DNA from: an uncultured Lachnospiraceae bacterium
GTDB lineage: Bacteria > Bacillota > Clostridia > Lachnospirales > Lachnospiraceae
Direction: 5' to 3'
Length of the DNA: 9,210 nucleotides
NCBI GenBank assembly: GCA_900544445.1
Contig: UQVK01000125.1
Span: 1-9,210, forward strand
A model generated the notes under the pieces. That model had not been told where the DNA came from and searched no databases. It saw only the letters and a program-made list of their open reading frames with translations. Position 1 is the stretch's first letter, and each line of letters opens with the position of its first letter. Position numbers and translations under genes: made by a program. This document shows positions 1-9,210 of this stretch, piece by piece.

Positions 1-149
1 CAGCCGCAGCCGTTCCCCCTGCCATCACCGCCATTGCTTCGGCAGCCGCAGTCATTGTCCCGGCTTCTGCAGTCAGTATTCCAGCAGCCTCCCGTCCGGT
101 TTCCTCTTCCGCAGCAGCATAAAAGTAACAGTAAATATAAACAGTTCAT
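1..149 (-). CDS. Cys-rich small protein, C-terminus beyond window
   Basis: Partial minus-strand reading frame. An ATG at 149-147 follows an excellent ribosome binding site (AAAGGAG, complement of 158-164) at 8 nt spacing, and 49 codons are open up to the window edge. The peptide begins MNCLYLLLLLCCCGRGN. It has a short Leu-rich hydrophobic stretch (residues 4-10), a CCCG motif (11-14), then a Gly/Asn/Asp/Arg/Cys-rich tail. Cysteines are at 3, 11, 12, 13, 22, 27, 34, 36 and 48, that is 9 of 49. The start lies 56 nt after the DUF5662 stop with no convincing terminator between, so co-transcription with the GH13 and DUF5662 genes is likely; a weak TATAGT -10-like hexamer (170-175) might add its own start. 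I recognise no named family. Metal-binding peptide, modified-peptide precursor or surface/spore-associated Cys-rich protein are all possible, none shown. The ribosome binding site and composition support a real gene; the function is unknown. Confidence 0.62.
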   Translation of the reverse strand, partial: MNCLYLLLLLCCCGRGNRTGGCWNTDCRSRDNDCGCRSNGGDGRGNGCG

Positions 150-205
150 ATGCTCATCTCCTTTACGATACTATATGTAAAGAAGATGAAAAGGTTCCGG
201 CCGCT

Positions 206-781
206 TCAGCGCTTCTTTCCCAGAAGAGAGATCCTGACATAGCGGAAGGTCCTTTCCTCTCCCTCCTGTGCCAGCATAGTCAGAAGCTTCAGAAGAAGCT
301 CTCTCGTATTTTCATGCATGATGGGCGGCTCCTTTGCTGCCAGAAAATACTCCAGAGGATCAGCGTCCGTATACTGACTGCCGCGGTATACCTTGGAAGC
401 CGCGATCCGGTCCATCAGCATCTCCGCCACATATTTCACCGGCATCTCCACCGGAGCCAGTCCTCCCGGCACATCTCTTGTGCTGTAATCGATCCAGTAT
501 TCATAATGATGCCGGTTTCGTCCCTTATGATGGAGCCAGGCGGAGGAATATCCCTTCTCCTCCCGCTCCGCGTTGTTTGGACTTCTGTTTCCCTGAAAAT
601 ATTTCGCGCCCACCAGAAATTCCGCAGGGCTGTATTTCGACAGATCATGGGTCAGCCCCTGCCGGTAAAGTCCGACGGCGAAGCAGCCCTTCATCACCAG
701 ATATTTATGATACGTAATGGTCCTGAAATGCTTCCAGGCGCCCGTCAGCAGGCGGACGCCGCCTTTTTTGTCATTATTCAC
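206..781 (-). CDS. DUF5662 family protein, possible HD-like metal-binding fold
   Basis: Complete 191-residue soluble protein that I recognise as DUF5662, whose role is unknown. Visible conserved blocks are GLTHDLSKYSPAEF (residues 42-55, with H45-D46), a His-rich block with H84, H85, H91 and H92 followed by YEYW (about 84-96), and MPVKYVAEMLMDRIAASKVY (113-132, with D124). The order His (H25), His-Asp, His cluster, Asp resembles the metal-ligand order of HD-domain phosphohydrolases; this is inference. The start is a GTG at 781-779 that overlaps the end of the upstream GH13 gene by 8 nt. The ATG inside the overlap is out of frame, and the next in-frame ATG (residue 30) would remove conserved sequence, so GTG is preferred. 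The overlap suggests translational coupling. No signal peptide or membrane segment is visible. Confidence 0.85.
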   Translation of the reverse strand: MNNDKKGGVRLLTGAWKHFRTITYHKYLVMKGCFAVGLYRQGLTHDLSKYSPAEFLVGAKYFQGNRSPNNAEREEKGYSSAWLHHKGRNRHHYEYWIDYSTRDVPGGLAPVEMPVKYVAEMLMDRIAASKVYRGSQYTDADPLEYFLAAKEPPIMHENTRELLLKLLTMLAQEGEERTFRYVRISLLGKKR

Positions 782-2876
782 AGTTCTTCGGTCCTGCTTT
801 CTGAATCTCTTCCGGCCTGCTCTCTTCCGGTCCGGCTTCGGAATGCGAGGCTTTTCTCTTTCCTTTTTTCCGTCCGGGTAAACTGCCGGATGATTTGCCG
901 GACAAGCTGCCGGGGAAGTTTCCCTCTCCGTCCGCCTTCTTCTGCGCGGCAGGCGCGCTGCTGATCAGGATCCGGATGGACCGGCCGGGAACACGGGTGC
1001 TCCGCCCTTCTCCGGCAGTCTCCTCCGGCTTTGCGGCCGTCATTTTCTCCGCTTTCTTTTCAGCCCTCTTTCCGTCATCGCTCTTTTCCGGCGCTTCCTC
1101 AAAGGTATCGCAGATTCTGACCCAGCTGCATCCCTCCGGCAGCGCGGGAAGCGCGAAATCATGCTCCTCCCAGTGCATATTATAGGCGATATAGAAGGAT
1201 TCGTCATTTTCCTTCCGGTTTTTCTTCGCATACCTTCCGCAGTACATCACACCTGCGATGCGGTTCTGCCGGTCCGTATTCAGCTTCCAGGCTTCCTCGC
1301 CGTGATAGGACAGATCCGGACAGCCGCAGGAAAGGTAATCCAGCATGGTCAGCTCCTCCGGACAGTGCAGAATCGGATGCTCCCTGCGAAGAGCCACCGC
1401 CCATTTCACGAAGGTAAGAAAATCCCTGTTCTCCTCAGTCAGTCTCCAGTCAAGCCAGTTTACGGCATTGTCCTGACAGTAGGGATTGTTGTTTCCTCCG
1501 TGGCTGAAGCCGAATTCATCTCCACTGACGATCATGGGCGTTCCCTGTGCCGTCAGCAGCAGCAGCATGGCATTCTTCATCTGCCGTTTTCTCAGCCTGA
1601 GGACCGCCTTTCTGCGCGTTTTCCCTTCGAAGCCGCAGTTCCAGCTGAAATTGCTGTCGCTGCCGTCCCGGTTATCCTCCCCGTTCGCTTCATTGTGCTT
1701 TCCGTCATAGGAAACCAGATCCGCCAGACTGAAGCCGGAATAATTGGTCATATAATTTATGACGCCGGCCTGAGAAGGGTTCCTCTTCAGGCAGGAAAGC
1801 ACGGAAGGAAGCATATTTTCATCTCCCTTCAAAAAGCCACGCATGGGATAGAGAAAGCTGTCATTATAGGACGCCAGGTTTTTATAGACTGGCGTTTCAT
1901 TGTTTTCATAGATATCGCCACAGGGCATATCCTCATAAAAAAGCTTGGTATTCCCCAGCATCGGCTCCGTCGCGAGAAGGGCCATAGGCACCCTGACTCC
2001 CAGCAGATGGAAGCCGTCCACATGATATTCCAGCACCCAGTAACGGATCACCTCCAGAATATACGCCTGCTTGACGGACGGAGGAAAATAAAACTGCATG
2101 ATCAGCTCGATTCCCGCCTCATGAAGCGCCTTCACCAGGCTCTTAAACTCCTCTGCCGGATGATCCGAGGCCGCATAGGAATACTTGGGCGCAAAATAAT
2201 AGCCCTCCTTATAACCCCAGTAATTGATTCTGGGCGTCTCCTCCGCCTCCGGATTCTCCATATAACGCCTCTTCGCTTCTTCCATGGTAGGCTCCGGCCG
2301 CTTCTCCCGTTCAAGCTCCACAAATTCGCAGGAGGGCATCAGCTCCACCGCCGTGATTCCCAGCTCCTTCAGATAGGGAATCTTCTCCCGGATTCCATCA
2401 TAGGTTCCCCGGTTCTTCACCCCCGAGCTCACGTGACGCGTAAATCCCCTCACATGCAGAAGATACAGAATGCTGTCTGAAAGGGACGTCATGGGCGGCC
2501 GATCCTCTCCCCAGTCAAAGCTTTCCGAACAGATTCCGCCCTTCAGCGAGGGATCCACGCGCCTGCCCCATTTCTCGTTTCCATAGATGATCGCCGCATA
2601 AGGATCCGTAATGATCTCGTCCCCCGCGTAATAATTATACTTAAAATTGCTGCCCGTCAGGCCTTCCACCTGCAGGCAGTATATATTGCCCACTTTTTTC
2701 CCCATATGAAAGGGAAGACGCACCGGCGTCCCCCGGTCATTCAGATACAGAAGCACTCCGCACTCATCCTTCGTGTGAAGAGCTGCCGCGAAATTCAGCC
2801 TTCCATCGGCAGTTACGGATACGCCCATGGGATATGGTACTCCAGGATAGGTCTTAATCTGCTGTCTTACTGTCAT
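774..2876 (-). CDS. GH13 glycogen-debranching-like protein, predicted catalytically inactive
   Basis: Protein of the GlgX/isoamylase branch of glycoside hydrolase family 13. Numbering starts at an upstream in-frame ATG at 2885 (703 residues). That ATG directly abuts AGGAG (2886-2890), whereas Met4 (ATG at 2876) has 9 nt spacing, so I choose 2876 (700 residues). A CBM48-like N-terminal domain (about 15-100, ending DPYA) precedes a TIM barrel (about 138-505). Hallmarks kept are WGYKEGYYFAP (223-233), KHNEANGEDNRDG (396-408), FSWNCGFEG (413-421) and GNNNPYCQDNAVNWLDW (464-480). The active-site blocks are altered. Region I reads QFYFPP (264-269) instead of DVV(Y/F)NH. Region II reads DGFHLLGV (290-297) instead of DGFRFDLA, losing Arg and the nucleophile Asp. 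Region IV reads TNYSGF (380-385) instead of TAHDGF, losing the stabilising Asp. Only the acid/base Glu seems kept (E318 in KLFYE). Residues 596-626 and 645-703 are Lys/Glu/Ala/Ser-rich low complexity around a last C-domain strand (about 629-642). There is no signal peptide, so it is probably cytosolic. A regulatory or glucan-binding role is inferred. Confidence 0.9.
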   Translation of the reverse strand: MTVRQQIKTYPGVPYPMGVSVTADGRLNFAAALHTKDECGVLLYLNDRGTPVRLPFHMGKKVGNIYCLQVEGLTGSNFKYNYYAGDEIITDPYAAIIYGNEKWGRRVDPSLKGGICSESFDWGEDRPPMTSLSDSILYLLHVRGFTRHVSSGVKNRGTYDGIREKIPYLKELGITAVELMPSCEFVELEREKRPEPTMEEAKRRYMENPEAEETPRINYWGYKEGYYFAPKYSYAASDHPAEEFKSLVKALHEAGIELIMQFYFPPSVKQAYILEVIRYWVLEYHVDGFHLLGVRVPMALLATEPMLGNTKLFYEDMPCGDIYENNETPVYKNLASYNDSFLYPMRGFLKGDENMLPSVLSCLKRNPSQAGVINYMTNYSGFSLADLVSYDGKHNEANGEDNRDGSDSNFSWNCGFEGKTRRKAVLRLRKRQMKNAMLLLLTAQGTPMIVSGDEFGFSHGGNNNPYCQDNAVNWLDWRLTEENRDFLTFVKWAVALRREHPILHCPEELTMLDYLSCGCPDLSYHGEEAWKLNTDRQNRIAGVMYCGRYAKKNRKENDESFYIAYNMHWEEHDFALPALPEGCSWVRICDTFEEAPEKSDDGKRAEKKAEKMTAAKPEETAGEGRSTRVPGRSIRILISSAPAAQKKADGEGNFPGSLSGKSSGSLPGRKKGKRKASHSEAGPEESRPEEIQKAGPKNCE

Positions 2877-2944
2877 GGTTTTCATCTCCTGTTTCTTGTT
2901 TGGGGCGGTACATGTGCAAACCAGTCCAAATCACATTTGCTTTT

Positions 2945-2953
2945 ATTATATCA
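2945..2953 (-). promoter_or_regulatory. Extended -10 promoter of the GH13 gene
   Basis: On the minus strand this reads TGATATAAT, a perfect TATAAT -10 (2945-2950) preceded by the TG of an extended -10. The -35 region (about 2968-2974) is GC-rich and poor, which fits an extended -10 promoter. The predicted transcription start near 2938 gives a leader of about 60 nt. The initial leader contains interleaved short inverted repeats (GCAAA...TTTGC, TGTG...CACA) between about 2920 and 2940, possibly operator-like. Confidence 0.6.
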
Positions 2954-3001
2954 TATAGGAAGAACCGCCGCCAGATTTTTATCGCCAAAGACGTTCCTTT
3001 G

Positions 3002-3010
3002 TGTTATACT
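3002..3010 (+). promoter_or_regulatory. Extended -10 promoter of the DUF1292 gene
   Basis: Reads TGTTATACT, a TATACT -10 (3005-3010) with an extended TG. A 4/6 match to TTGACA (TCGCCA, 2982-2987) lies 17 nt upstream. It is back to back with the GH13 promoter, the two -35 regions being about 10 nt apart. A perfect 8-nt palindrome, CCACGTGG (3013-3020), covers the expected transcription start and could be an operator. The start codon lies about 70 nt downstream. Confidence 0.55.
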
Positions 3011-3085
3011 GTCCACGTGGCAGGAATTCCCGCCGGCAAAATTCAACTGTTTTCATTTAACGAACAGGGAGAAATGGAGGTAAGC

Positions 3086-3430
3086 ATGAGCAGCGATTAC
3101 AGGAAGCCGTCCGGAGAGCCGGAAGAAGAAATGAGCGTAGAGCTGGAACTGGAAGACGGCTCAAAAGTCAACTGCGCCGTCATTACAATTCTTGAAGTGG
3201 AGGGAAAGAACTACATCGTACTCCTTCCGCTGGACGAATCCGGGAACAACGAGGACGGAGAGGTCTGGTTCTACGGCTATTCGGAAAACGAAGAGGATCC
3301 CAATGAGGAACCTGAGCTTCGCTACATTGAAGACGACGCGGAATATGAGATCGTGGCGGACGCCTTTGACGAATATCTGGACAACTGTGAGTTTGACGAG
3401 CTGATTGACCCGGATGAGGAGCAGCTTTAA
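3086..3430 (+). CDS. DUF1292 family acidic protein
   Basis: 114-residue protein with the DUF1292 pattern: VELELEDGSKVNCAVITILE, then a short beta-rich core (YIVLLPLDE, VWFYGYSE) and an acidic C-terminal part (LRYIEDDAEYEIVADAFDEY). By my count 39 of 114 residues are Asp or Glu and only 5 are Lys or Arg, so it is strongly acidic and small enough to act as a binding partner. The family is widespread in Firmicutes and its biochemical role is not established. The start at 3086 is set by GGAGG (3076-3080) at 5 nt spacing; the in-frame ATG at 3074 overlaps that ribosome binding site and is unlikely. It has its own promoter and terminator, so it appears monocistronic. Its TAA (3428-3430) overlaps the TAA of the convergent helicase gene (3427-3429) in a shared TTAA. 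Confidence 0.88.
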   Translation: MSSDYRKPSGEPEEEMSVELELEDGSKVNCAVITILEVEGKNYIVLLPLDESGNNEDGEVWFYGYSENEEDPNEEPELRYIEDDAEYEIVADAFDEYLDNCEFDELIDPDEEQL

Positions 3431-5430
3431 AAGCCGAGGTCACTGAGGAACCGGGAGAGAAATCCCGGTTCCTCTTTTGTTCCCGCCACCCACAGCAGAG
3501 TCAGACGCTTTCTCGCCCGCGTCATGGCCACATAAAACATCCTCCTCTCTTCTTCCACCTGCTCTCCCTTCATGCTTTTCTTATGGGGAATTGTCCCTTC
3601 ATTGCAGTCCGGCAGATAGACGGCATCGTATTCCAGCCCCTTGGAAGCGTGCATGGTCAGCAGGCTGACGCAGCCCTCTCCCGGCTTTTTCGCCGAGGCG
3701 CTCTCCAACTCCTTTTCATAGAAAAGAATGTGTTCCTCCAGCTCCGCCTGTGAGGGAAACTCCCTTACCTGCTTCTGAAACCAGTCCGCTTCCTGACGCA
3801 GTTCCTGAAGTCTGCCGTTTCCCTCCAGAGCGGACTGCCTCAGATATTCGTCATACCCCAGTCCCCGCCGGATATAGTTGACGGCAGCGTATGGATCCAT
3901 CCGCTTCAGGCGGGCCAGATCCATTTCCAGCTTTCTCAGAATTTCCTTCATATAGGGCTTATCCCGGTAAAAGGCTTTCAACCGGTCCAGGTCAACCCGC
4001 TCGGTATCCACCGCAGAGCGGGAAATATAGCGCTTCGGCCGGTTCATGATACGAAAAAAATCCGACCGCCTCTGTCCCGCGAAAACGAAGGACAGGTAGG
4101 CCCGAAGGTCCAGCGCCGTCTGACTGCGATAGGGGCTTTTCAGTTTCTCCTTCATCCAGAAGGGTATGCCTTTTTTTGTCAGCAGCTCTGCCAGCTCCGC
4201 CGCATCCCGGTTCGTCCGGAAGATGACGGCGGTCTTTCCCCGCTCCTCTCCCGCCTCCAGAAGCTCTCCCGCGATTTTTTCATTCTGCGCTTCTCTGTCG
4301 GGAAAACCCAGGAAGCGGACCGCCTCTCCATGGCCAGAAGCTGCTCTGCTCTTCTTTTCAAAGCGGTTTTTGTTTACGGAAATCAGTTTCCCGGCGCAGG
4401 AAAGGATCTCCGGCGTGCTCCGGTAGTTGATGGAAAGCTCCACCCGTCTGGCCTGTGGATAGTCCTTCTGAAAGCCCAGCATAAGCTCCGGCCTCGCGCC
4501 GCGGAAGGCATAGATGGACTGATCGTCGTCCCCCACCACGAACAGGTTGTTTTCCGGCAGGGCGAGCATGCGCAGAACTTCGTACTGCATGGCGTTGATG
4601 TCCTGAAATTCGTCCACCAGAATATATCGGAACTTTTTCTGCCAGGCTGCAAGAATGGAAGGATACTGCAAAAAAAGATTCCTGCATTCCAGCACCATGT
4701 CGTCAAAATCCAGCTTCCGCCGCTCCTTCGCCTCCCTGCTGTAGGCGGAATAGACGGCGAAGAACTGTTCCTTTGACAGCGCGCCGGCCTGCGGCATCTC
4801 CTGCGGACCGTCCGGAAGCACTCCGGGGCAGCCGTCGTTTTTATATCGGCTGATCTGATTCAGCAAAAGCTCCAGCTGATCCTCTTCCATGGAAGGAAGT
4901 CCCTTCTGCCGGAACAGGACGGTCTTTAACAGCTCTCTCTTTTCATGTTCGGATAAAATATTACCGGACTGGTAATGATAGGCACTTTTCAGAATGTGAT
5001 AATAGATGGCGTGGAAGGTTCCGAAGTTCACCGGATAGAACTTCCCTTCCGTCAGGCGGAAGAATCTGCCCTTCATTTCCTCGGCAGCCGCCCTGGTAAA
5101 AGTGATGACCAGAATGGAATCGGGCTGTACCCCGCCCTCCTCAATCAGACAGCGGATGCGCTGCGTGATGGTATACGTCTTTCCGGAGCCTGGGCCTGCG
5201 AGAACAAGCATTGCTCCGTCCCGGTGCGCAATGGCTTCCGCCTGGCCGGGATTGGAGCCTGCTTCCGGCATGGGCCGCCCAGAAATAGGAGGGTGGGCCG
5301 AACCGGAGGCAGTAGGGCGGGACGGGACGGAAGCGGGAGGGCGGACCGAACCGGAAGCGGGAGACCCGGCCGCCGGCACAGATTTCTGCGCCGGCGCGCC
5401 GCTCGGCTCCCGTTTCAGGAAATCATCCAT
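3427..5430 (-). CDS. UvrD/PcrA-like superfamily 1A DNA helicase, short form
   Basis: ATP-dependent 3'-5' DNA helicase of the UvrD/Rep/PcrA group, 667 residues, acting in repair or replication-fork maintenance. Motifs in order: Q motif SNPGQAEAI (59-67), Walker A AGPGSGKT (78-85), Ia [12 protein letters not shown] (108-119), II LVDEFQD (271-277), [18 protein letters not shown] (298-312), IV NYRS (335-338), [13 protein letters not shown] (591-602) and [20 protein letters not shown] (626-643). All core ATPase residues are present, so it should be active. It ends only about 27 residues after motif VI and so lacks the C-terminal extension with the RNA-polymerase-binding module of typical PcrA (usually over 700 residues). 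The N-terminus (about 8-57) is Pro/Ser/Ala-rich and probably disordered. The ATG at 5430 overlaps the gltX stop by 8 nt, suggesting translational coupling. It is better called a UvrD-like paralogue than PcrA itself. Confidence 0.95.
3445..3481 (+). terminator. Rho-independent terminator of the DUF1292 gene
   Basis: Perfect 12-bp stem, GAGGAACCGGGA (3445-3456) and its complement (3463-3474), with a 6-nt loop (GAGAAA), followed by TTTTGTT (3475-3481). It starts 15 nt after the DUF1292 stop. It lies wholly inside the 3' coding end of the convergent helicase gene, where the stem encodes residues near EEPGFLS. On the minus strand no T-tract follows the stem, so it should act mainly on plus-strand transcripts. 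Confidence 0.9.
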
Positions 5431-6889
5431 TCAGGCTGCCCTGCAGCATCCGGATTCCGGTACGGATGCGCGCGAGGGACTCTTCCTTTCCGATGATTTC
5501 CATGATTTCCGTGGCTCCGGCAGGGGTCATCTGCCTGCCGGACACGGCGGTGCGGATCGGCCACATGACGTAGCCGTTCTTGCATCTTTTTTTCTCCACA
5601 TAGGAAAGAAGCGTCGCATAGAGGGCATCGTTGGAATAATCCTCCTGCTCCTCCAGAATGGGAAGCACCTCTGAAAGCACCTCCAGAGAGCTTTCCTGCG
5701 TGGTCTTCATTTTCTTATGAGCGTACATGGCCGTATCGTATTCGGGCAGCGTCTCGAAGAAGTCCACCATATCCACGATATCGGGGAAAATCTCAATTCT
5801 GGTCTTAACCATCGCCGCGATTTTCTTCAGATCCAGATCTTTATGAATCGCCTGCTTCAGGTAAGGCTCGGCCATCTCATAGAAGCGGTCAAAATCCATG
5901 GCCTTGATGTATTCGCCGTTCATCCATTTCAGCTTGGTGTAATCGAACACCGCCGGGGATTTGGACATGTGATGATAGTCAAACTCCCGGATCAGCTCGT
6001 CCATGGACATGATCTCCTGGTTGTTCTCCGGGCTCCAGCCGAGAAGGGCAACGAAGTTCACGATGGCTTCAGTCAGAAAGCCCTGATCCAGAAGATCCTC
6101 ATAGGAGGAATGGCCGCAGCGCTTGGACAGCTTGTGATGCTCCTCATCCGTGATCAGCGGGCAGTGCACATAAACGGGCACCTCCCAGCCGAAGGCCTCA
6201 TACAGACGGTTATACTTCGGAGAGGAAGAAAGGTATTCATTTCCCCGCACCACATGGGTGATTCCCATGAGATGGTCGTCCACCACGTTAGCAAAATTGT
6301 AGGTGGGGTAGCCGTCGGACTTGATCAGGATCATGTCGTCCAGTTCCGCGTTTTCCACCGTAATGTCTCCGTAAATCTCATCATGGAAGGTGGTGGTTCC
6401 TTCCGTGGGATTGTTCTGACGGATCACGTAGGGCACGCCCGCCGCAAGCTTCGCTTCCACCTCTTCCTTCGACAGATGCAGGCAGTGCTTGTCATACACG
6501 TTGATCTCCTTGCCCGCAACCGTACGGGTGAGGGTGGCAAGGCGCTCCTTATCGCAGAAGCAGTAATAGGCCTCTCCCTTTTCGATCAGCTTTTTGGCAT
6601 ATTCCAGATAGATGCCCTGCTTCTGACGTTCGCTCTGCACATAGGGGCCCACGCCGCCGTCCTTGTCCGGTCCCTCGTCATGGACGAGTCCCGTCTTCTG
6701 AAGGGTTCTGTAGATGATGTCCACGGCTCCCTCCACATATCTTTCCTGGTCCGTATCCTCAATGCGCAGGATGAAATCGCCGCCTTCATGCTTGGCGATC
6801 AGATACGCATACAGCGCGGTACGCAGATTTCCCACATGCATTCTGCCCGTGGGACTGGGTGCAAAACGTGTTCTTATTTTCATTCTCAT
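5423..6889 (-). CDS. gltX: Glutamyl-tRNA synthetase
   Basis: Class I aminoacyl-tRNA synthetase that charges tRNA(Glu) with glutamate, in the cytosol; 488 residues, normal for bacterial GluRS. The N-terminal Rossmann catalytic domain opens with [20 protein letters not shown] (8-27), where HVGN (18-21) is the HIGH motif, followed by [10 protein letters not shown] (41-50). A CFC (110-112) plus CLH (136-138) set fits the Cys-x-Cys...Cys-x-His zinc site of zinc-type GluRS. The KMSKS equivalent is KLSKR (253-257), followed by [10 protein letters not shown]. The C-terminal part (about 325-488) is the helical anticodon-binding region. ATG at 6889 has AAGGA 4 nt upstream; Met3 (ATG at 6883) is an equally good start with 10 nt spacing. 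It has its own strong promoter and is followed by the overlapping helicase gene. The leader (about 47 nt) is too short for a T-box. Confidence 0.97.
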
Positions 6890-6903
6890 CGGTTCCTTTC
6901 CGG

Positions 6904-6928
6904 GCCGCCCGGATTCATCCCGGCCGGC
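6904..6928 (-). repeat. GC-rich hairpin in the gltX leader
   Basis: Inverted repeat with 9-nt arms (GCCGGCCGG and CCGGGCGGC on the minus strand, one G-G mismatch) and a 7-nt loop. It lies between the predicted gltX transcription start (about 6936) and the ribosome binding site. No T-tract follows it, so it is not an intrinsic terminator, and it leaves AAAGGA free. It may stabilise the mRNA 5' end; any regulatory role is unproven. Confidence 0.45.
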
Positions 6929-6942
6929 GTCATATATGCATC

Positions 6943-6971
6943 AGTTTAAGCAAATCAGTGCGGTTTGTCAA
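6943..6971 (-). promoter_or_regulatory. Sigma-A promoter of the gltX-helicase operon
   Basis: On the minus strand: consensus -35 TTGACA (6966-6971), a spacer of exactly 17 nt, and -10 TAAACT (6943-6948). It begins 27 nt upstream of the ATG-proximal leader hairpin and within the 104-nt gap between feoB and gltX. No terminator is visible after the feoB stop, so some read-through from feoB cannot be excluded. Confidence 0.85.
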
Positions 6972-6993
6972 TCGGGTTTTCGCTTCCTCTTTC

Positions 6994-8997
6994 TCACCGC
7001 AGGATCAGCGATCCCACCTGGAAAACGACCACACTCACCCCCCAGGCCAGCACGAGCTGGAACGCCAGCATACCGCAGGTGAATTTCCAGGAACGGCTTT
7101 CCCGGTGGATCGTTCCGATGGTCGCCGCGCAGGGCACGTACAGCAGACAGAACAGCATCAGGCAGAACGCGTTAAGACTGCCGAAGGTGGGATCGAACTG
7201 CCGGATATTTTCGATGATGGTCGCCATGCCGGCTGCTGAATTCACATTGGAAACGCCGAACAGCACGGAGAAGGAGGAAACCACCACTTCCTTTGCGGAG
7301 ATTCCGGAAATCAGCGCCACAGCGATCTGCCAAAGGCCCAGACCGGCGGGGGCGAGCACGGGAACCAGGAAACGTCCGATTGCCGCGCCGAAGCTTTCGG
7401 AAGGATCCGTCACCATGCCGTGCACGCCGAAATTCAGGACGAACCAGATGGCGATGGATGCGATGAAGATCGTGGTTCCCGCCTTCGTCAGATAATCCTT
7501 CAGCTTGTTCCAGACATAGGTGCGGATGGTTCTCGCGTTCGGACGCTTATATTCGGGAAGCTCAATGAGCAGGGACTGATTTTCCTTTCCCTTTTCCAGC
7601 CGGTTCTGGATGAGAGCCACCAGAATCGCCACCACCATGCCGATCACATACATGGAAAAGGCCACCAGCATGGAACAGTTCGGGAAAAACATTTCCGAAA
7701 ACAGCACATAGATCGGCAGTCTCGCAGAGCAGGACATGAAGGGCGTCACGATCATGGTGCGCCGTCTGTCATGCTCTGTCTCCAGCGCGCGGGTCGCCAT
7801 GATGGCGGGAACCGTGCAGCCGAAGCCGAGAATCATGGGCAGAAACGCCTTGCCGGAAAGTCCCACACGCCCCATGATGCCATCCATCACATAGGCCACC
7901 CTGGACATATAGCCGCTGTCCTCCAGAATGGCAAGAGCCAGAAACAGGATGAAAATATTGGGAATAAAGGTCAGGATGCCGCCCACACCGGCCACAACAC
8001 CGTCCACCACCAGGGAAATCATCCAGTCCGCCGTATGGATGGCCGCAAGGCCGGAACGCATCAGATCGGATACGACGGCAAGGGCGTATTCCAGACCGCC
8101 CTTCAGGAAATCTCCGACGGCAAAGGTCATAAAGAACACCAGCGCCATGATGCACAGAAACACCGGAACGCCCCAGACCGGATGGGTCAGAACCCTGTCG
8201 ATTTTATCCGTTCCGGCTGCCTTTTTCGCCTTATAGAACAGCGTCTCATCGATCACCGTTTCGATATATTCGTATTTTTTCTCCGTGATCTCCTTCTCGT
8301 AGCTGCGGTCCGCCACACCCTTCAGCTCGATGGGATGATCCTTCTTCACCTCCGGATCGTCCTCCAGCAGCTTGATCGCGTGCCAGCGCAGGGAGGAATG
8401 GTCCGGATAGCTGTCCTTCATCCGCTCTTCCAGAACCGCAAGCCTGTCTTCGATTTCTTTCCCGTAATTCAGGATATCCTGCTTCGGACCTTCCTCATAA
8501 TGATGAACCACCGCATGCATCAGAATGTCGAGCCCGGTCCGCTTTGCCGCGGAAACCGGAACCACAGGAATCCCTCCCAGCATCTCCGGCAGACGGTGCA
8601 GGTCGATCTCCATCCCCCGCTCCTTCACGATGTCCATCATATTGAGCGCCAGGATGACCGGCTTCCCCAGCTCCAGAAGCTGGAGCGTCAGATACAGGTT
8701 TCTCTCCAGGCTGGAAGCGTCTACCACGTTGACGATCGCTTCGATATCATCGTCCAGGACGCATTTTCTGGTCACCATCTCTTCTATGGTATAGCAGGTC
8801 AGAGAATAGATGCCGGGCGTGTCCACCAGCTTCAGCTCATATCCTTCATAAGTGATATTTCCTTCGTATTTTTCCACCGTCACGCCGGGCCAGTTGGCCA
8901 CCTTCAGCTTTGAGCCTGTGACCGCATTAAACAGCGTGGTCTTTCCGCAGTTCGGATTTCCCACAAAAGCCACATGAATATGATTATCTGCACGCAT
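6994..8997 (-). CDS. feoB: Ferrous iron transporter FeoB
   Basis: Inner-membrane Fe(II) uptake protein, 667 residues from Met at 8997. The N-terminal GTPase domain has G1 GNPNCGKTT (13-21), G2 around NWPGVTVE (35-42), G3 DTPG (59-62), G4 NMMD (119-122, the NxxD form) and G5 SAA (149-151). A helical spacer (about 165-265) follows, then the polytopic membrane domain with several hydrophobic segments (for example 276-294, 335-358, 443-463, 508-525, 611-628, 639-666). Conserved membrane motifs are GFGCTVPAIMATR (391-403), PFMSCSARLPIYVLF (419-433), GISAKEVVVSS (565-575) and YVPCAAT (620-626). Met at 8997 is chosen because GGAGG (9008-9012) precedes it by 10 nt and because the conserved domain begins at once. 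The frame stays open to 9093, but that stretch runs into the hairpin block and looks non-coding. No FeoA domain is fused and no feoA is seen; it could lie beyond the right edge. Confidence 0.96.
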   Translation of the reverse strand: MRADNHIHVAFVGNPNCGKTTLFNAVTGSKLKVANWPGVTVEKYEGNITYEGYELKLVDTPGIYSLTCYTIEEMVTRKCVLDDDIEAIVNVVDASSLERNLYLTLQLLELGKPVILALNMMDIVKERGMEIDLHRLPEMLGGIPVVPVSAAKRTGLDILMHAVVHHYEEGPKQDILNYGKEIEDRLAVLEERMKDSYPDHSSLRWHAIKLLEDDPEVKKDHPIELKGVADRSYEKEITEKKYEYIETVIDETLFYKAKKAAGTDKIDRVLTHPVWGVPVFLCIMALVFFMTFAVGDFLKGGLEYALAVVSDLMRSGLAAIHTADWMISLVVDGVVAGVGGILTFIPNIFILFLALAILEDSGYMSRVAYVMDGIMGRVGLSGKAFLPMILGFGCTVPAIMATRALETEHDRRRTMIVTPFMSCSARLPIYVLFSEMFFPNCSMLVAFSMYVIGMVVAILVALIQNRLEKGKENQSLLIELPEYKRPNARTIRTYVWNKLKDYLTKAGTTIFIASIAIWFVLNFGVHGMVTDPSESFGAAIGRFLVPVLAPAGLGLWQIAVALISGISAKEVVVSSFSVLFGVSNVNSAAGMATIIENIRQFDPTFGSLNAFCLMLFCLLYVPCAATIGTIHRESRSWKFTCGMLAFQLVLAWGVSVVVFQVGSLILR

Positions 8998-9059
8998 TTT
9001 TCCAATTCCTCCATTTCTTCCGCAGCCTGTCCGTTCCCTGCCGGGAATTGTGTCGGCGC

Positions 9060-9210
9060 TACAGTTCAGCCTTCGGCAGAACTGTAACGGCATCCGGCCA
9101 TTCCAATCGCAGCACTCGCCTCATCGTGCAGCGATGGGCCGGATGCTTCCTCGCTATACGTTTTCGTACGGTCTGCGCAGTAAATGCGCAGACCTGGCTG
9201 AATAGTAACG
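9060..9210. repeat. Multi-hairpin palindromic intergenic element, cut by window edge
   Basis: About 150 nt without a plausible gene, made of successive inverted repeats. Hairpin A has arms TACAGTTC (9060-9067) and GAACTGTA (9079-9086), with an inner GCC/GGC pairing around TTC after one A-A mismatch. Hairpin B has arms GCATCCGGCC (9090-9099) and GGCCGGATGC (9137-9146), with inner pairs ATCGC/GCGAT (9106-9110, 9131-9135) and GCAC/GTGC (9112-9115, 9126-9129). A small TACG/CGTA pair with a T4 loop lies at 9157-9168. Hairpin C has arms GGTCTGCGCA (9170-9179) and TGCGCAGACC (9185-9194). Two related 15-mers, ggcagaactgtaacg (9075-9089) and ggctgaatagtaacg (9196-9210), match at 12 of 15 positions and sit 121 nt apart. 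A further 5-bp hairpin (9034-9047) lies between this block and the feoB ribosome binding site. It could be a dispersed palindromic repeat, a MITE-like element or a structured RNA upstream of feoB. No clear promoter for feoB is visible in it. Confidence 0.7.

Follow-up and report, generated by a model that had tools for sequence, protein, structure and literature searches.

A maintained GlgX-like pseudo-isoamylase of the Lachnospiraceae, predicted to be non-catalytic

The locus, its former catalytic site and the predicted fold

The window, a 9,210-nucleotide stretch of DNA from an uncultured Lachnospiraceae bacterium (GenBank assembly GCA_900544445.1, contig UQVK01000125.1, positions 1 to 9,210), encodes on its minus strand a GlgX-like protein in which the regions that form the active site of glycogen debranching enzymes are altered. 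Judging from its sequence and those of its relatives, this is a real, maintained, family-wide bacterial pseudo-isoamylase, and we predict with high confidence that the window protein has lost catalysis. The gene and the parts of it on which this prediction draws are listed below, with strands and model confidence taken from an AlphaFold2 (AF2) prediction.

774–2885, minus strand: pseudo-isoamylase gene, GlgX-like, an open reading frame of 703 amino acids
2601–2837, minus strand: N-terminal beta-rich stretch, residues 17–95, with AF2 strands, in place of the GlgX/isoamylase N-domain
2211–2219, minus strand: Trp223 and Tyr225, equal to the sugar-contacting Trp222 and Tyr224 of GlgX in the GlgX alignment
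2073–2102, minus strand: former catalytic region I, residues 262–271, with QFYFPP replacing DVV(Y/F)NH; after it, 44 residues present in GlgX are deleted
1995–2024, minus strand: former region II, residues 288–297, with Arg changed to His293 and the nucleophile Asp to Leu295
1917–1946, minus strand: former region III, residues 314–323, with Glu318 kept in the window but not in the family, and Trp changed to Met320
1728–1760, minus strand: former region IV, residues 376–386, with His-Asp changed to Tyr382-Ser383
1623–1700, minus strand: kept isoamylase loop KHNEANGEDNRDG...SWNCG, residues 396–421, in which Glu403 equals the sugar-contacting Glu470
1464–1499, minus strand: kept GNNNPYCQDN loop, residues 463–474, in which Asn467 and Tyr469 equal the sugar-contacting Asn534 and Tyr536
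777–1085, minus strand: C-terminal part, residues 601–703, with the last structured AF2 strands reaching about residue 643 and a low-confidence charged tail at 656–703

The residue changes named in the initial annotation (QFYFPP, His293, Leu295, Tyr382 and Ser383) all lie where it had placed them and are confirmed by alignment to Streptomyces venezuelae GlgX (7u39). In this alignment Asp342 corresponds to Leu295, Glu378 to Glu318, Trp380 to Met320, His449-Asp450 to Tyr382-Ser383, and the region I His271 to Pro269; GlgX numbering is as published in PMC9530166, with an offset of 3 from the SEQRES record derived from the NYWGY motif. The corresponding codons occupy 2079–2096 (QFYFPP), 2007–2009 (His293), 2001–2003 (Leu295, CTG), 1932–1934 (Glu318), 1740–1742 (Tyr382, TAT) and 1737–1739 (Ser383, TCC). 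Leu295 is three base changes from an Asp codon and Ser383 two, which agrees with the earlier statement that each lies more than one base away, while His293 and Tyr382 are one base from the canonical residue. The frame is open over 703 codons, matching the intact frame of 700 codons claimed previously. Against the TIGR02100 profile the protein scores 304.1 bits, below the curated cut-off of 640.9.

The three-domain isoamylase fold is present in the predicted structure (predicted TM-score 0.87, with 0.89 for a second family member), and its best matches are rice ISA1 and S. venezuelae GlgX, consistent with the initial view that the GlgX scaffold has been kept. Model residues 11–643 superpose on GlgX residues 2–705. 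The acarbose contacts described for S. venezuelae GlgX (PMC9530166) include Trp222, Tyr224, Glu470, Asn534 and Tyr536; of eight non-catalytic contacts that could be mapped onto the window protein, five are kept and three, the equivalents of His271, Trp380 and His449, are lost, with Arg212 unmapped. Control by cyclic di-GMP was considered as well. Streptomyces GlgX binds this nucleotide through an ExR(X)6R motif in its N-domain (PMC9530166), and the matching stretch of the window protein, YLNDRGTPVRLPF, read by eye from the GlgX alignment, has no Glu before the Arg and a different spacing, so control as in Streptomyces was rejected for absence of the motif.

Two further observations concern the gene itself. 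Charged C-terminal tails differ in sequence between several family members (the window at 777–917, L061 and L074). An open frame of 439 codons runs antisense to the pseudo-isoamylase on the plus strand (1161–2480) and is probably spurious.

Loss of the triad, common ancestry and selection across the family

We aligned 227 rows of the pseudo form (the window protein, 120 listed proteins of the 7996 scored, and 106 loci) with 39 GlgX rows (4 from named plasmids and 35 from the genomes searched, which belong to the same bacterial family), leaving out the fragment L223 and three pullulanases. The Asp-Glu-Asp triad is complete in 0 of the 227 pseudo rows, window included, versus 39 of 39 GlgX rows, a contrast that is partly built in, and to that extent tells against our reading, because rows were sorted as GlgX or pseudo after their motifs were known. 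Two triad residues survive in 5 pseudo rows, one in 69 and none in 151, and 2 rows are gapped; Asp stands at the nucleophile position in a single row, L213, whose other two triad residues are changed. The initial annotation had named absence of the substitutions from all close orthologues as a refuting result; instead, triad loss extends to all orthologues examined. It had overlooked that 44 residues are missing between regions I and II, a loss that leaves a linker of 20 residues in 227 of 227 pseudo rows versus 64 in 39 of 39 GlgX rows.

A tree of 86 rows, rooted on the three pullulanases and obtained by a quick search without bootstrap, places its 54 pseudo rows (27 of 80 loci, taken every third, together with 26 later loci and the window) in one clade with a support of 99 in the Shimodaira-Hasegawa-like approximate likelihood ratio test; its GlgX rows (29 of the 39) fall on the opposite side with 93. 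The tree contains 27 weak forks, and the long-branch rows L205 and L218 are flagged in it. Because row sorting relied on motifs already seen, the clade and the linker length are the freer tests of the separation.

Residue usage at the old catalytic positions was counted in 206 long rows (the window, the 120 proteins and 85 loci, with near-copies between the sets still included). The nucleophile position is occupied by Lys in 60 rows, Met in 58, Leu in 42 and Asn in 15, with others in the remainder; the position of the acid/base Glu318 holds Tyr in 78, Glu in 50, Asp in 14 and Gln in 11, again with others. The earlier statement that the acid/base remains thus holds for the window and fails for the family. 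All three former triad positions are variable, the most common residue accounting for a share of 0.29 at the nucleophile, 0.38 at the acid/base and 0.32 at the stabiliser. In a short or divergent subset (L200–L220 without L217, plus L222) Asn takes the place of the nucleophile in 17 of 21 rows, and many rows lack a portion of region III.

Other parts of the protein are strongly conserved. Trp223 and Asn467 occur in all 206 long rows and Glu403 in 204, while Tyr469 is found in 189 (Trp in 17) and Tyr225 in 150 (Phe in 56); the KHNEANGE...SWNCG and GNNNPYCQDN loops rank among the most conserved parts of the pseudo family. Fourteen positions are fixed differently in the pseudo and GlgX rows, and seven of these (264, 265, 266, 268, 293, 294 and 296) belong to old regions I and II. 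This pattern in the pocket looks like replacement rather than erosion.

A pseudogene in decay would account for the lost catalytic residues and for ratios of nonsynonymous to synonymous substitution (dN/dS) slightly above those of GlgX: 0.088–0.100 in four of six close pseudo pairs compared with 0.033–0.076 in five of 27 GlgX pairs, the other 2 and 22 pairs being saturated and dS exceeding 1.5 in all pairs for which a ratio was obtained. Those same ratios are low, however, and together with open frames across the family, invariant motifs and a shared deletion they already refute decay, whose probability we regard as negligible. The maintained pseudoenzyme proposed in the initial annotation is instead upheld by the single clade, the carriage in about 200 of 250 genomes described below, the purifying selection and the conserved replacement residues, with the loss of activity itself a prediction.

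The conserved pocket could also indicate an enzyme that is still active through a remodelled site and that perhaps carries out debranching in strains where no known debranching enzyme occurs. Carboxylates do occur at old catalytic positions in part of the family, with Asp or Glu at the former stabiliser in 64 of the 206 long rows and Glu at the former acid/base position in the 50 counted above. Nevertheless, Lys, Met or Leu predominate at the nucleophile position, and the only acids conserved in pseudo but not in GlgX rows (Asp394, Glu403 and Asp516) all lie off the old catalytic positions. Migrated carboxylates as substitutes for the triad, a possibility that the initial annotation had itself raised, were rejected for this reason. 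We consider an active enzyme very unlikely, and its bearing on debranching capacity is taken up below.

Distribution, glycogen genes and gene neighbours

The family profile matches in 207 of 250 genomes drawn from the GTDB family to which an Anaerocolumna genome (locus L036) belongs, taken as Lachnospiraceae, and about 200 of these genomes are counted as pseudo carriers. The calls were made by E-value alone (1e-125 or better) for 171 genomes, by reading residues for 21, and by number of matches, uninspected, for eight (G040, G060, G075, G119, G132, G191, G206 and G231). Set aside as carrying GlgX only are G017, G215 and the fragmentary G052, in which residues were read, and G056, G190, G219 and G241, on match pattern alone; residues were checked in 24 of the 36 weakest-matching genomes. 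Canonical GlgX (E 1e-125 or better) is present in 84 of the 250 genomes, one of them partial, and glgA in 246. The branching enzyme gene glgB was checked in two sets of carriers and found in all members of both (14 of 14 and 20 of 20). In the first 14 genomes there is one pseudo copy each, accompanied by GlgX in 6.

The best 80 of 582 loci carry the labels Lachnospiraceae (67), no family (11), Clostridiaceae (1) and Fusobacteriaceae (1). The last, L056, comes from a record named Fusobacterium naviforme; its neighbours cluster with Lachnospiraceae loci, and the label may be wrong.

In one alternative, the pseudo form is a non-catalytic subunit of active canonical GlgX, in a strict bacterial counterpart of the plant pair in which ISA2 binds ISA1 (PMC12892837, PMC12510319). 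The pseudo form does occur in about 78 of the 84 genomes with full or partial GlgX versus about 122 of the 166 without (Fisher p 0.0002, kinship uncorrected). However, those approximately 122 genomes are carriers without GlgX, as are 8 of the first 14 genomes. With about 122 of 200 carriers in this condition, the pseudo form is not as a rule a subunit of canonical GlgX; an obligate GlgX partner was rejected as the general case, and we judge this alternative quite unlikely.

The same GlgX-less genomes bear on the idea of a hidden debranching enzyme. Among 20 GlgX-less carriers, picked in handle order, glgB is present in 20, type I pullulanase in 6 and GH133 in 5, and 13 lack all three debranching enzymes (GlgX, pullulanase and GH133), which would suit an active pseudo form. 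Among 20 GlgX-less non-carriers, those listed of the 43 genomes without a match, the corresponding numbers are 17, 5 and 2, and 15 lack all three. The debranching gap is thus not specific to carriers, and the hidden-enzyme idea is weakened.

Beyond the question of the pseudo form, neither type I pullulanase nor GH133 was found in 28 of the 40 GlgX-less genomes checked, and glgA is present in 40 of 40. L106 and L107 encode a GH13 protein of approximately 690–710 residues, which we take to be neopullulanase-like; the same profile pattern occurs in 13 of 14 genomes, these two being the ones read. It is a candidate for other glucan cutting.

The pseudo-isoamylase gene is flanked in the window by two genes of recurrent type.

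206–781, minus strand: DUF5662 gene (Pfam PF18907, 129.5 bits), whose GTG start overlaps the pseudo-isoamylase stop by 8 nucleotides
3134–3430, plus strand: DUF1292 coding stretch, divergent from the pseudo-isoamylase, its exact start unsettled

Neighbours were counted over 81 loci (the window and the best 80 of 582). The most regular of them is DUF5662, which occurs in 45 loci; in every one it lies downstream in the same orientation, and in 41 it is within 600 nucleotides. With the most upstream start codon taken, the DUF5662 start falls -136 to +27 nucleotides from the pseudo-isoamylase stop in 31 of 35 loci, and 569–655 nucleotides away in the other 4. Among 61 loci with enough flank, 24 of the 33 that have a gltX or uvrD match also have DUF5662, versus 10 of the 28 that have neither. 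The residues H25, H45-D46, H84-H85, H91-H92, D98 and D124 are kept in 41 of 45 DUF5662 rows, and this His/Asp set resembles a metal-site pattern. Pfam lists DUF5662 as a family of unknown function; the search for a relative of solved structure returned none (best E 0.15), there is a weak match to a phage family whose function is likewise unknown (phrog_20637, 51.5 bits), and no paper on DUF5662 was found in the open literature searched.

The remaining recurrent neighbours, gltX, uvrD and DUF1292, occur in 36, 40 and 47 of the 81 loci, with all but one match upstream; DUF1292 is both upstream and on the opposite strand in 43, and in the window it may share with the pseudo-isoamylase gene the intergenic stretch after 2885. 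The recurrent neighbours resemble housekeeping genes, with names assigned from sequence and, for the window's own genes, from profile scans. A glycogen link through gene neighbours was rejected, as none was recognised. No RNA element was found in the window at gathering score, and a scan of 2700–3200 gave one promoter and one terminator, near chance.

The regularity of DUF5662 suggests a further alternative, in which the pseudo-isoamylase is a regulator with DUF5662 as its real partner and with a ligand other than glycogen. Here the refitted pocket (QFYFP, HLxG, NYxGF) would bind another metabolite, and the isoamylase body would scaffold a predicted metal-binding partner. The co-directional downstream position in 45 of 45 loci where the gene was found, the close start spacing, the more frequent presence beside gltX or uvrD matches, the retained H..HD..HH..HH..D residues and the new residues fixed in the old pocket all fit this alternative. 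It is harder to reconcile with five conserved sugar contacts, which are difficult to explain without a glucan, and with the 36 of 81 loci, some with short flanks, in which DUF5662 was not found. We regard it as possible but doubtful.

A putative glucan-binding accessory of glycogen metabolism

We consider glucan binding by the pseudo-isoamylase likely, given the kept sugar contacts. Of the readings considered we favour an inferred role as a non-catalytic, glucan-binding accessory of glycogen metabolism, which appears to us an even call. In such a mechanism, the replacement of the nucleophile, the stabilising Asp and nearby catalytic-site residues would prevent cleavage of glycogen, while the kept part of the cleft would grip alpha-glucan chains, either maltooligosaccharide or glycogen. 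The glucan-bound protein could then serve as a sensor or scaffold governing the access of branching, phosphorolytic or debranching enzymes to the polymer, much as ISA2 does with ISA1, and the co-directional DUF5662 protein would be a possible functional partner.

Several observations weigh against this proposal. None of the recurrent neighbours could be recognised as a glycogen gene, and the most regular one, DUF5662, belongs to a Pfam family of unknown function. Glycogen synthesis is near-universal in the sample, which makes its co-occurrence with the pseudo form uninformative, and the many carriers without canonical GlgX weaken the analogy with ISA1 and ISA2. The loops with Glu403 and Asn467 are partly of low confidence in both AF2 models, which would be consistent with ordering by a ligand or partner, although this is weak evidence. 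Of the seven -1 subsite contacts in GlgX the window protein keeps three (Trp, Tyr and Glu) and loses the equivalents of His271, Asp342, Trp380 and His449; with four contacts lost and the Glu not family-wide, glucan binding could be weak. Finally, the Glu403 column is Trp in 31 of 39 GlgX rows, so that either GlgX of this bacterial family does not share this feature or that stretch is misaligned.

The closest known parallel is plant ISA2, a non-catalytic isoamylase paralogue that occurs in complexes with ISA1; its removal alters the form of the polymer even with inactive ISA1 (PMC12510319), and rice ISA2 raises ISA1 activity (PMC12892837). Both proteins have a GH13_11 fold, a changed nucleophile and a long evolutionary retention, and both occur in a setting in which branched alpha-glucan is synthesised. 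Every ISA2 examined departs from the conserved catalytic residues in at least four of five positions (PMC12510319). The window protein shows the same extent of change, nucleophile included, with His293, Leu295, Tyr382 and Ser383 altered and Glu318 kept, a correspondence by number of residues.

Unlike ISA2, the window protein is bacterial, and its model has no extra N-terminal beta-sandwich, starting at the part that aligns with the GlgX N-domain. The family profile scores ISA1 at 361.7 bits versus 198.2 for ISA2, and the tree holds no plant rows. The 44-residue loop deletion, established by comparison with GlgX, marks the bacterial pseudo clade, and most bacterial carriers have no GlgX partner, unlike ISA2 with ISA1. 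Unlike GlgX, TreX and bacterial isoamylase (TIGR02100, GH13_11), the pseudo form has no triad, a linker of 20 rather than 64 residues and, in the window, a score of 304 against a cut-off of 641. At most, the bacterial protein may work like ISA2, and we file it neither as ISA2 nor as a GlgX enzyme.

More distant parallels combine likeness in role with difference in kind. The SLC3 proteins rBAT and 4F2hc belong to another GH13 branch and are membrane glycoproteins of animal amino-acid transporters, with ectodomains that have lost catalysis; GlgD has an unrelated fold and belongs to a different pathway step. The pseudo-isoamylase resembles the rBAT and 4F2hc ectodomains as a possible partner subunit with an alpha-amylase-family fold (PMC8537225), and GlgD as a second subunit beside a catalytic one, GlgC of ADP-glucose pyrophosphorylase, in the same glycogen pathway (PMC10395257).

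A bolder version of the accessory role, which we think unlikely, is a glycogen-docked two-protein switch that arose in the Lachnospiraceae independently of plants, in which the dead isoamylase would clamp chains and recruit DUF5662 as an HD-like metalloenzyme. If so, DUF5662 would couple the state of glycogen to signalling or to a phosphohydrolase reaction.

A non-catalytic isoamylase from bacteria was not found to be reported in the part of the open literature searched. Homology-based naming can label pseudo-isoamylases as GlgX, and gut genomes may then be credited with more debranching capacity than they have. For Blautia obeum, two glgX homologues are listed in one gut survey (PMC10395257), and we would guess that one of them may be a pseudo-isoamylase. 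Why a non-catalytic isoamylase stays under selection is an open question in starch biology (PMC12510319). The Lachnospiraceae would offer a second, apparently separate case, mostly without a GlgX partner, in which the question posed by ISA2 could be tested in a simpler, bacterial setting.

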